Shown here one piece after another: positions 9,549 to 16,959 of a DNA stretch of 32,930 nucleotides (its first letter is position 1; each line of letters opens with the position of its first letter). Origin of the DNA: Acidobacteriota bacterium (lineage in GTDB: Bacteria > Acidobacteriota > Polarisedimenticolia > JAPUKU01); the NCBI GenBank assembly GCA_027295505.1, contig JAPUKU010000224.1, forward strand, positions 1 to 32,930, written 5' to 3'. The position numbers were made by a program, and so were the translations under genes. Under the pieces are notes generated by a model. That model had not been told where the DNA came from and made no database searches. It saw nothing but the letters and a program-made list of their open reading frames with translations.

Positions 9549-10922
9549 ATGAAGTTGAGCACGCTCATCACTATTTTTGTCGGCTTCGTGCTGATCTTCG
9601 GCATGACCCGCCTGGTGACGGTCAATCAGCAGGTGCTGATTGCCCCGTTCGAGCTGCCCCGGGACCTGACGCTCCCCATATACGCCATCATTGGTATCGC
9701 CTTCCTGGCCGGACTCATGCTGGCCATCCTCACGCGACTGCGCTACGTGGCCCGCGACTGGATTCGGAGGCTGAAAAGCCACCGCCAGAGCCGGGGCTCG
9801 GCTGATATCGAAGGGACCTACATGGAAGGCGAGGAGGCAATCCTCAACGGTCAGAAGGAGATGGCGCTCGATAGCTTCCGCGAGGTCCTGGAACGGGATC
9901 CTGAGCACCGTTCCGCGCTGCTCAAGGCCGGCGAGGTGGCACGGACCCTGGGACAGCACGATGAGGCGGTTCGCATGCACAAGGAGGCGGAACGCCTACA
10001 GCCAGAAGACCTGCGGGCGCTCTACGGTCTGGTGGCGGATTACGAGGCCATGGGCTCAACCGACGCGGCCCGGGAGGTTCTGGAGCGTATCATCGCGCGG
10101 CACCCGCGACACCCTATTACCGCCTACCGCAAGTTGAGGCAGATCTTCATGAGCGCGGATGAATGGGATCAGGCCGCAGAGATACAGGACAAGATCCTAC
10201 GGCTCGTCCATCAGAACGCCTATGCCCGCGAAGCCGAGGCACGATACAGCCTGGGCATCCAGTACGAGCGCTCCTGCATGATCCTCAAGCAGGAGCGCTG
10301 GAAAGACGCGGCCACTGCGTTCCGAAAGATCATCAAGGAGAAACCGGACTTCGTACCGGCCTACCTGAACCTGGGTCGCGCTCTGGAGATCTCCGGAAAT
10401 CACAAGGACGCACTGGAAACATGGAAGCAGGGATTCCAGACCACCGGCTCAGCTGTGTTCCTGACTGCAATCGAAGATCACCTGCTCGATCGTGAATCAC
10501 CCCAGCAGGCGATTCAGATGCTGGACGATCTGGCACACTCGCCCCGCCGCCCGTTGCTGCCGCGCTTCCACCTGGGCTGTCTGTACCTGCGCCTGGAAAT
10601 GATCGACGATGCACACCGGCACTTCGAGTCAATCCAGACTGAAGCGGAATCGTTCCCCGCCTTCCACTATTACCGCGGCCTGGCCCTGGAGCGCCGCGGC
10701 TATGTGCCCCAGGCGGTGGAAGCCTTCCGCACCGCCCTCGAGAGCCTGGACCTTCCGCGCATCGAGTATGAGTGCACCGTCTGCAAGAAGCGCTACGACA
10801 CATGGAAGGATCGCTGCGAAAAATGCGGCGAATGGAACCGGGTGGAGATGCACCTCCCGCCCGGAGGTCCTTCTGAAGAGGGAATCTCCTCCGCTCCCAT
10901 CTACAGCGCCCGGGAAAGGTGA
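9549..10922 (+). CDS. LapB-like TPR protein with an N-terminal LapA-like two-helix membrane domain and C-terminal rubredoxin-type metal site
   Basis: Two hydrophobic helices at the N-terminus, TPR-like repeats, C-terminal CTVCKKRYDTWKDRCEKCGEWN (CxxC-x12-CxxC). Confidence 0.8.
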   Translation: MKLSTLITIFVGFVLIFGMTRLVTVNQQVLIAPFELPRDLTLPIYAIIGIAFLAGLMLAILTRLRYVARDWIRRLKSHRQSRGSADIEGTYMEGEEAILNGQKEMALDSFREVLERDPEHRSALLKAGEVARTLGQHDEAVRMHKEAERLQPEDLRALYGLVADYEAMGSTDAAREVLERIIARHPRHPITAYRKLRQIFMSADEWDQAAEIQDKILRLVHQNAYAREAEARYSLGIQYERSCMILKQERWKDAATAFRKIIKEKPDFVPAYLNLGRALEISGNHKDALETWKQGFQTTGSAVFLTAIEDHLLDRESPQQAIQMLDDLAHSPRRPLLPRFHLGCLYLRLEMIDDAHRHFESIQTEAESFPAFHYYRGLALERRGYVPQAVEAFRTALESLDLPRIEYECTVCKKRYDTWKDRCEKCGEWNRVEMHLPPGGPSEEGISSAPIYSARER

Positions 10923-13346: not shown

Positions 13347-14387
13347 TTGAGGAAATTTCTGATCTGCCTGGGATTCTGCCTTCTGGCCTGCGTGGTCCCT
13401 GCCCCAAATGACGTGGCATCCGCAGAAGGAGAGAAAACCGCCACCGGGGACGCTTCGAGCCAGAAAGCGCCGGACCCGGCCTCACCTGTGTGGGTCGTCT
13501 CGGAAGTAAGGTTTCCCAACCTGTTCTCTTCCCTGTTCTACACCTTATACAGCGGCGATCCTGTGGAGTATCGCATCCTGCTTCACAATATCGGGGATGA
13601 GATGATCGAGCTACCAGGGGGGGGTGATCTCCGAAACAGCCTCCGTGTGACTGGACAGGAAAGTAAATCGCTGACCGTCAAAGCAGCAGACGAGCTTCCC
13701 GAAGGATCACTTCCCAAGGAGCTCCGTCCCGGACAGATCACCGGAGCCATTTTCAACCTGGTCGACGTCGTTCCCGACATCACCAAGCCTGGCACCTACA
13801 CGATCGACTGGTCCGCGGGGGAGTGGAAGTCGAATTCCGTTGAGATTCGCATCATTGGCCGCTTCAATCCGGAGGCCGATTACGAGGCCGTGCTGGAAAC
13901 CCAGGAGGGTGAGATTCGAATCGACCTGCTCTCCAAGGACGCTCCCATGCATGTGAGAAACTTCGTGAATCTCTCCCGGCTCGGGTATTACGATGAACAG
14001 GTATTCCACACCAGCGCCCGCGACCGATCAATCCGCACGGGAGGTCCGTTCAAGGACGGCATCCGTTCGATCGGCTACCGGATTCCAGCCGAGATCTCAT
14101 CGCTGCGCCATGTGGCCGGAGCGGTGTCGATGTACCGCGACTTGGGACAGCCCGGCACGGATAGCGACGGATCACAGTTTTTCATCAGCCTGGTTGATCT
14201 GCCGGATCGGGACGGGATATTCACGATCTTCGGCCACATCAAGGAGGGATTGTCGGTCGCCAAGAAGATCGGGGCCCGCCAGCCCAGCGCCGATCCCGCG
14301 CTGCCGCCCGGCACTCCCAAGGATCCGGCAGAGATTCACCGCATCATAATCGTTGAGAAGCCGCGAGACGTCTCCTCAGGAGGATGA
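13347..14387 (+). CDS. Lipoprotein cyclophilin-type peptidyl-prolyl isomerase
   Basis: Lipobox-like LLAC in MRKFLICLGFCLLACVV; cyclophilin region ETQEGEIRIDLLSKDAPMHVRNFVNLSRLGYYDEQVFH and GSQFFISLVDLPDRDGIFTIFGHI; TTG start with GGAGG. Confidence 0.88.
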   Translation: MRKFLICLGFCLLACVVPAPNDVASAEGEKTATGDASSQKAPDPASPVWVVSEVRFPNLFSSLFYTLYSGDPVEYRILLHNIGDEMIELPGGGDLRNSLRVTGQESKSLTVKAADELPEGSLPKELRPGQITGAIFNLVDVVPDITKPGTYTIDWSAGEWKSNSVEIRIIGRFNPEADYEAVLETQEGEIRIDLLSKDAPMHVRNFVNLSRLGYYDEQVFHTSARDRSIRTGGPFKDGIRSIGYRIPAEISSLRHVAGAVSMYRDLGQPGTDSDGSQFFISLVDLPDRDGIFTIFGHIKEGLSVAKKIGARQPSADPALPPGTPKDPAEIHRIIIVEKPRDVSSGG

Positions 14388-14426: not shown

Positions 14427-14456
14427 AAAAAAAAGGGGGTGCGGTTAGCACACCCC
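14427..14456 (-). terminator. Intrinsic terminator of the 40-aa basic protein gene
   Basis: Minus strand GGGGTGTG-CTAAC-CGCACCCC (one G-U) followed by a T-tract. Confidence 0.85.
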
Positions 14457-14493
14457 TTAAAGTGGTACGACCTGCCGCGGATGGCGGCGGGCT

Positions 14494-14616
14494 TCAGCTA
14501 CGGCGACGGCGCTTGGTCTTCCGAGCAGTCTTCTTCCGCGCAGTCTTGCGAGCGCGAGTTCCCGTGCTCTTCTTACGGCGCGTTGTCGCCTTCTTCTTCT
14601 TGCGACGCTTTGCCAC
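14494..14616 (-). CDS. Unannotated 40-aa, Lys/Arg-rich histone H1/protamine-like protein
   Basis: GTG start at 14616 after GGAGGTGA-GCT. Translation MAKRRKKKKATTRRKKSTGTRARKTARKKTARKTKRRRRS*. Flanked by a putative promoter and an intrinsic terminator. Below the ORF-track size cut-off. Confidence 0.82.
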   Translation of the reverse strand: MAKRRKKKKATTRRKKSTGTRARKTARKKTARKTKRRRRS

Positions 14617-14684
14617 AGCTCACCTCCCTTTCGTATCAGGTTCCCACCCTTCCCCAACTACTGGGGGGATGAAAACTGTCGCAT

Positions 14685-14713
14685 ACAATATATTGGGGTC
14701 TGATGGAAGTCAA
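14685..14713 (-). promoter_or_regulatory. Putative promoter for the basic protein gene
   Basis: Minus strand TTGACT - 17 nt - TATTGT, about 70 nt upstream of the GTG. Confidence 0.5.
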
Positions 14714-14737: not shown

Positions 14738-15637
14738 ATGCGGCGTGCCCTGACTTGCCTATTGATTGCAGTTCTATCGTTCTGCGCCGCGCCAGCTCCC
14801 GCCAGATCAGAGACAACCGAAGACTCTGCGCAGACACCATCAGCAGACGACAACCCCGGAGCTGTTGACGCACCCGATGCGACCCCGCCGAAGCCGAACC
14901 TGTGGATCGAGGTGGAAGGAAACCGCCGCTGGTGCGTTCGAATGCGCGAACCGGTCTGGCCCAACACCCGGGTTGTCCGCCCGCGGGGCCGCAGAACGCG
15001 GCGGGCCATGGCCATTTCCTCGCTGGCATACACGTACTACGTGTACGCAGAAATCGAAAGCGACGAGCCTGAGGAAGAGGTGCAGGAAGAGGGAGGACAG
15101 CCCGCAGCGGTCCCCGCTTCCGACGTACCTCTCGCACGCCCGGCGGTGCGAGAGGATGGAGGTGCTCCGGAGGGCGCCGTGCTGCTCGCAGAAGCTCCTG
15201 TGTTCCGCCCTCTCAAGACCGTGCGCCGGCCCAAGCGGGGCCAGCCACTAGAGGCTCAACGAAATGCCGTGTACACAGCCTGGGACAATTCCAGGACCTG
15301 CACGATCTTTCCCAATCACCTGCAGGCCAGCTTGCCGCCCGGCCGCTACACTCTGCAGGCGAACTTTGACGTCATGATTCGTCGCCGTGGCTGGCAGCAC
15401 TCCCAGATAGCCAGGCTGGAAGGGGTAGAGATAAAGGAAGGCCAGGTCACCAAGGTCTCGATGCAGGTCTCGACGGACGGATACGTCGAGGCCAAACCTC
15501 AGGGGCGTGTGGTGTTCTTTCTTCCCGCCGAGATCCCGGGTGACGCGAAGCCAGCTGCCAAAGAAGGCGCACCTGCCGATCCGCAGGAAGAGTCCCCTGC
15601 AGATTCCTCCGCCGACATCACCCCCGGCGGTGTCTGA
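14738..15637 (+). CDS. Secreted hypothetical protein
   Basis: MRRALTCLLIAVLSFCAAPAPARSE signal peptide; the track N-terminus (14384) reads antisense through the 40-aa ORF and is unlikely. Confidence 0.65.
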   Translation: MRRALTCLLIAVLSFCAAPAPARSETTEDSAQTPSADDNPGAVDAPDATPPKPNLWIEVEGNRRWCVRMREPVWPNTRVVRPRGRRTRRAMAISSLAYTYYVYAEIESDEPEEEVQEEGGQPAAVPASDVPLARPAVREDGGAPEGAVLLAEAPVFRPLKTVRRPKRGQPLEAQRNAVYTAWDNSRTCTIFPNHLQASLPPGRYTLQANFDVMIRRRGWQHSQIARLEGVEIKEGQVTKVSMQVSTDGYVEAKPQGRVVFFLPAEIPGDAKPAAKEGAPADPQEESPADSSADITPGGV

Positions 15638-15642
15638 TTGGC

Positions 15643-16959
15643 ATGCCCGAGATTCGGCCCCTTCGTGCACTCCGTTATGATGTCTCGAGGGTGGGTGATT
15701 TATCGCTCACCCTTTGTCCTCCCTACGACGTCCTTTCTTCAGATGACCAGGAGAGACTGCGCGCGCAGAACCCGTACAACTTCGTGCGCCTCATCCTGCC
15801 ACGGGAGGAATCCGGAGCCGACCGCTACCGCGCCGCCAGAAACCTGCTCGAGAGCTGGCGCCGGAACGGTACCCTGAAGCGAGATCCAGCCCCCGCCTAC
15901 TACTTCTACGAGCAGGAATACAGCGCCAGCAGTGGAGAATCGCTGCGCCGGCGGGGCATTTTCGCCCTGGTGCGCCTGCACGACTTCTCCGAAGGCGTTG
16001 TACTTGCTCACGAGCAGACGATGCCCGCTCCTCGCGAGGATCGTTACCGCCTGCTGGAAGCCAGCGCCACCCACCTCGACCCGGTCTTTGCTCTTTACAC
16101 CGACCCGGCCCAGACGGTTGATCCGCTCTTCACCCAGGCGGCACAGGACGCTCCGCTCGTGGACGCACGATCCCCTGACGGAGTGCGGCACCGCCTGTGG
16201 CTGACGGGCCGAAAAGAGGAACAGGCTCGCATCACCGCCACGCTCGCAAACACCTGGGTCCTGATCGCCGATGGGCATCATCGGTACGAGTCGGCCCTGC
16301 GTTACTCCCGCAGCCAGCCTCGGGGCAACGGATCGCCGAGGCCCTGTGACTTCATGCTCATGGTGCTGTGCAACATCGACGCTCCCGGTCTCAGCGTGCT
16401 GCCCATCCACCGCACGGTTCACTCAGTGCCGGACTTTGACGCGCAGGGCTGGCTTCGCAGGCTCGATGAGTGGTTCGAGAACCGTCCGCTAGACCTGGCA
16501 CAGGACGGCGAACGAGCAGCACAGACCATCGAAGACTCGCTGCGGCCGTTTGTGGGGCAGGGAGGTGCGGTGGTGGTTGCGGCCGGCAGAAGGGATGCGC
16601 ATCTGCTGACGCTGAGGCCCGGCGTAGATCGTGCCCGGGAGTTCGGAGGCTCCACCGCGGGACCTCTGCTCGGGCTCGATGTCTCGCTGGTACACGGCCT
16701 CATTCTCGGGCGCAGCCTGAGAATGACCTCTGACGAGCAGCTTCTCCAGACCCGGATGCGTTACGCCAAATCGACCACAGCGGCCCTCGACGATCTGGCC
16801 TCCGGCGCCAGCCAGGCGGTGATCTTCATGAACCCCACGCCGATCCGATCGATCGTGGAGGCCACCCGTGCAGGTCTGCGGATGCCCCCCAAGTCCACGT
16901 TCTTCTATCCGAAGATGATTTCCGGGCTGGTGATTCACCCCTTTGATGACGAGGGGTGA
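15643..16959 (+). CDS. DUF1015 family protein
   Basis: MPEIRPLRALRYDVSRVGDLSLTLCPPYDVLSSDDQERL, LIADGHHRYESALRY. Confidence 0.88.
   Translation: MPEIRPLRALRYDVSRVGDLSLTLCPPYDVLSSDDQERLRAQNPYNFVRLILPREESGADRYRAARNLLESWRRNGTLKRDPAPAYYFYEQEYSASSGESLRRRGIFALVRLHDFSEGVVLAHEQTMPAPREDRYRLLEASATHLDPVFALYTDPAQTVDPLFTQAAQDAPLVDARSPDGVRHRLWLTGRKEEQARITATLANTWVLIADGHHRYESALRYSRSQPRGNGSPRPCDFMLMVLCNIDAPGLSVLPIHRTVHSVPDFDAQGWLRRLDEWFENRPLDLAQDGERAAQTIEDSLRPFVGQGGAVVVAAGRRDAHLLTLRPGVDRAREFGGSTAGPLLGLDVSLVHGLILGRSLRMTSDEQLLQTRMRYAKSTTAALDDLASGASQAVIFMNPTPIRSIVEATRAGLRMPPKSTFFYPKMISGLVIHPFDDEG

Follow-up and report, generated by a model that had tools for sequence, protein, structure and literature searches.

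A 40-residue lysine/arginine-rich bacterial protein with its own expression cassette and a composition resembling a histone H1 tail

Does a very short and extremely basic open reading frame on the minus strand of an Acidobacteriota contig form a gene of its own, and if so, on what would its product act? The stretch of DNA analysed here, referred to as the window, is the 32,930-nt contig C140 of a 2.92-Mb assembly that is 95% complete. The original prediction had described a promoter-like TTGACT-17-TATTGT site, a Shine-Dalgarno (SD) sequence, a GTG start, 40 codons, a TGA stop and an intrinsic terminator, and we found all of these elements on the minus strand (Table 1). The span it had given, 14427-14713, is correct for the cassette as a whole; the gene proper covers only 14494-14616. 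When the surrounding 1.3 kb region was examined, the promoter was the sole promoter-like site (0.3 expected in shuffled sequence) and the terminator of the 40-aa gene ranked best of five terminator-like sites, its hairpin folding with -15.8 kcal/mol (z = -3.7 against shuffles).

Table 1. Positions of the cassette elements and of the neighbouring genes in the window
Feature	Position	Strand	Remarks
40-aa Lys/Arg-rich ORF, MAKRRKKKKATTRRKKSTGTRARKTARKKTARKTKRRRRS	14494..14616	(-)	40 codons from the GTG start at 14616; TGA stop ends at 14494; paralog and class relatives
Shine-Dalgarno region GGAGGTGA	14620..14628	(-)	SD GGGAGGTGA, a few nt 5' of GTG
Sigma-70-like promoter TTGACT-17-TATTGT	14685..14713	(-)	9/12 consensus matches; -35 TTGACT at 14713-14708, 17-nt spacer, -10 TATTGT ending at 14685
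Intrinsic terminator	14427..14456	(-)	hairpin GGGGTGTG-CTAAC-CGCACCCC at 14456-14436, 8-bp stem, 5-nt loop, then eight T 3' of the hairpin
Cyclophilin-type isomerase	13347-14387	(+)	beyond the terminator, convergent with the 40-aa gene
Secreted-looking 299-aa protein	14738-15637	(+)	no Pfam match; divergent from the 40-aa gene, upstream of the DUF1015 gene
DUF1015 gene	15643-16959		

The composition of the product was then counted. It contains 12 Lys and 12 Arg and no acidic residue, exactly as predicted, together with 7 Thr, 5 Ala, 2 Ser, 1 Gly and the start residue. Aromatic residues are likewise lacking, the net charge is +24, or one positive charge per 1.7 residues, and there is no hydrophobic core. 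All 12 Lys codons are AAG and the Arg codons are CGT, CGC or CGG with no AGR, while in the genes of the window AAG makes up 78% of Lys codons and AGR 14% of Arg codons; this choice is compatible with a well-adapted gene, in a small sample. The gene may be highly expressed, as the original prediction had proposed. Scans for short Lys/Arg-rich frames covered 1.24 Mb of loci and a further 0.55 Mb made up of this genome and of loci with pattern matches; they returned no other short frame at the Lys/Arg level of 0.60 except the paralog described below, and the next most Lys/Arg-rich short frame reached 0.53 and had no SD. Since no equally basic short frame exists in these scans apart from the paralog, the 40-aa frame is not a product of chance.

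A pattern search of the same genome revealed this paralog, a 38-aa frame, MAKRKAKKKKTTKRRKKASKKKVSRKKVSKRKSRRRRR, at about 10,104-10,220 (-) of contig C130 of the window genome (G000). It is 50% identical to the window protein across 38 aligned codons and is built in the same way, with a promoter-like site (TTGACA-16-TACATT), the SD AAAGGAGGTGG followed by a GTG start, and a terminator hairpin GGGTGGGC...GCCCACCC followed by T7. Elsewhere in the genome (C20, about 11,800 (-), L013 / L156), a strong SD precedes the gene of a 162-aa SWIB/MDM2 protein (Pfam E = 3.9e-28) with an N-terminal Lys/Arg-rich tail of ~80 residues that starts MAKRRRKSKSRK. This protein is a candidate second chromatin-like protein of the same genome.

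Relatives were sought next, among comparison genomes none of which belongs to the order of the window genome. A protein search of 60 relatives returned the query only, and an HMM made from the two paralogs reported just one of them across 396 genomes of the phylum, failing to report its own input in its own genome; for this reason the negative profile results mean little. Because profile searches miss such low-complexity members, we adopted DNA patterns. The class pattern, consisting of SD, start, Ala, Lys and basic codons, matched 17 sites in 41 genomes, and 8 of the 17 were strongly basic ORFs in similar cassettes, two in the window genome and six in three other families. The products outside the window genome have 98 aa (G035), 53 aa (G012), 72 aa (G008), 115 aa (G038), 105 aa (G024) and 103 aa (G005), the last three with an acidic GSSDEEE-type end, and net charges range from +24 to +66 with a pI of 12. 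All eight cassettes carry an SD of GGAGG or GAGG, which is partly built in by the GAGG that the pattern requires. Furthermore, TTGAC[AT] lies 70-126 nt upstream of the start in 8/8, compared with 5.5% of 160-mers from the window, and a terminator-like hairpin followed by a run of T is present in seven of the eight; about 1% of stretches taken from the window score as high as six of these seven do. In the three f6 promoters (G038, G024 and G005; L270, L271 and L272) we also noticed a palindrome in the spacer after the -35 element, AAGGAT-C-ATCCTT in G038 and the imperfect AAGGATCACCCTT in the other two, a possible operator.

Most genomes of the class gave no match to the DNA patterns, which were built on the present finding, are biased towards it and make the search incomplete, and on these matches the Lys/Arg-rich gene group does not look universal in the class. 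Among about 355 genomes outside the class, only two loosely similar ORFs were detected by pattern, giving a large class enrichment; the class and phylum patterns differed, however, and both were built on this finding, so that little weight can be put on its P value. The two ORFs are Lys/Arg-rich (L250 in G273, 86 aa; L339 in G361, 119 aa) and have acidic C-terminal ends, f6-like in style. Pattern matches from outside the class were mostly chance frames or common proteins whose N-terminus is short and basic, such as ribosomal L1 and signal peptidase, and were discarded. No similar frame lay near the loci found in a synteny scan with the neighbouring DUF1015 protein or near the DUF1015 loci of the class, and the surroundings differ among members, indicating that position is not conserved.

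Selection on the reading frame could be estimated in the class relatives, the window gene having no close relative for such a measurement. In the closest pair, G012-G008, pS was 0.58 and pN 0.07 (dN/dS about 0.07), and among the f6 pairs dN/dS was 0.30-0.50; this supports translation of the family. The G012 and G008 genes come from one genus and are 94% identical from the -35 element to the start codon and 95% identical over the 3' 75 nt, and the difference in product length is due to an insert of KKAT-type units. A non-coding RNA with a fortuitously open Lys/Arg-rich frame would also have its own promoter and terminator, and a search of the cassette against Rfam, which gave no match above the cut-off, did return a weak suhB/mmgR match (17.5 bits of the 41 needed, E = 0.31). 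This match is far below threshold, however, and the SD-plus-start spacing in all members, together with a G012-G008 frame that is kept while third positions change, makes an RNA gene very improbable. We consider it just as far-fetched that the frame serves as a leader peptide or attenuator that responds to the supply of Lys and Arg: it is short, enriched in codons of one kind and directly followed by a terminator, but the next gene in the window, encoding the cyclophilin, is convergent and leaves nothing to attenuate, the gene beyond the terminator of the paralog likewise lies on the opposite strand, and products of 98-115 aa exceed leader size. Taken together, the paralog, the six class cassettes, the conservation of their promoter, SD and terminator, and the purifying selection seen in one pair bear out the claim of a genuine small gene. 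It is almost certain that the 40-aa ORF is a true coding gene and that it belongs to a small, class-level, length-variable group of Lys/Arg-rich genes. That the eight cassettes share an ancestor is a reasonable inference, which alignment is unable to prove: homology statistics fail on sequence of such low complexity, and the likeness could reflect convergence in composition.

What might such a protein do? The 40-aa protein has no Pfam or NCBIfam match, and for PF07382 and NF038052 none even at E 10; a longer class member (115 aa) scores against Pfam HC2 with E = 1.6e-7 (32.1 bits of the 40 needed) and against NCBIfam hist_H1_lk_Burk with 1e-7, also below the cut-off. The proposed resemblance to the basic domains of H1, Hc2 and AlgP holds in composition, with the longer member reaching HC2 below the cut-off. 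We favour, with a probability of about 0.6, the interpretation that a monocistronic gene encodes a disordered polycation that would act like an H1-like basic tail and bind and compact nucleic acid, most likely DNA. Binding of nucleic acid by the 40-aa protein is presumed, as is the choice of DNA over RNA and polyphosphate. The polycationic chain would attach to phosphate backbones without sequence specificity, and its likeliest partner, chromosomal DNA, would be neutralised in charge, aiding compaction of the nucleoid; the 38-aa second copy and the 162-aa Lys/Arg-tailed SWIB protein might act alongside. Neutralisation and compaction are put forward as the likeliest action on the basis of the literature on Hc2, bpH1, HctA/HctB and AlgP and of the sub-cut-off HC2 match. 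The role is expected to be non-essential and condition-dependent. In Bordetella, bpH1 knock-outs behave like the wild type (PMC2848022), and in Chlamydia the nucleoid still condenses after HctA/HctB knock-down, with the next cycle impaired (PMC13317200).

Two other partners of a basic peptide were weighed. A peptide associated with RNA or the ribosome, like bTHX or bS22, would stabilise rRNA and not DNA, and the small size, charge, strong SD and absent fold all fit this, as does the affinity of Hc2 for RNA, described as higher than that of Hc1 (PMC2848022). Lengths of 38-115 aa and two divergent copies in one genome are unlike a ribosomal protein, however, no ribosomal profile in Pfam or NCBIfam matches, and the pattern matches in few class genomes (in an incomplete search) instead of near-universally, so we regard such a role as unlikely. 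Alternatively, the protein could bind polyphosphate granules or tether them to DNA in the manner of AlgP, which carries an H1-like basic tail, associates with polyphosphate granules in Pseudomonas aeruginosa and spaces them (PMC9239181). This appears more doubtful still, since the helical N-terminal domain of AlgP is missing, which would leave both functions to a single peptide, and the immediate neighbours, a cyclophilin-type isomerase, a secreted-looking protein and DUF1015, give no pointer to polyphosphate.

Returning to the H1-like basic tail, the second copy and the similarly built class genes suggest a real and unusually small bacterial protein of this type, and proteins of this kind probably coat DNA or RNA. 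If it binds DNA, the 40-aa protein would rank with the smallest bacterial proteins of the H1-like kind and offer a natural test of the minimal sequence for nucleoid compaction. More tentatively, at somewhat less than an even chance, the class may hold a family of protamine-sized chromatin peptides, down to 38 aa, with more than one copy per genome, autonomous cassettes, scattered sites and free change of length, which would have escaped notice so far because short sequence of low complexity defeats annotation and profile searches alike. Where genes are annotated by length and by profile cut-offs, the counts of such families are probably too low, given that even a two-row profile missed one of its own input sequences.

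Among known systems, protamines and the eukaryotic histone H1 tail share the extreme basicity and disorder of the window protein, a likeness of composition with no evidence of descent. The 162-aa protein of the same genome joins a SWIB/MDM2 domain to its Lys/Arg tail, and the 40-aa protein, in which Pfam finds no SWIB/MDM2 domain, corresponds to the tail-like part alone. With the C-terminal domains of AlgP and PhaF from Pseudomonas it shares H1-tail-like basic repeats that are thought to bind DNA (PMC9239181), but AlgP combines a helical N-terminal domain with a KPAA repeat tail, and the 40-aa protein has neither, carrying ARK/TARK-type units instead. Hc2 (HctB) of Chlamydia and the Hc2-like BpH1 of Bordetella and Burkholderia (PF07382, NF038052, NF038053) share with it the Lys/Arg richness, the disorder and the scarcity or absence of acidic residues. 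The window protein is not filed as an Hc2 member because it fails the Pfam HC2 and NCBIfam Hc2 models, and it differs in having little alanine, no proline and two tiny copies in one genome; the shortest members of the group have 38-53 aa, compared with 149-237 aa for Hc2 (PMC2848022). In Hc2 and Hc2-like proteins the gain and loss of repeats changes length (PMC2848022), and the 53-aa and 72-aa relatives in the class likewise differ by repeat units.
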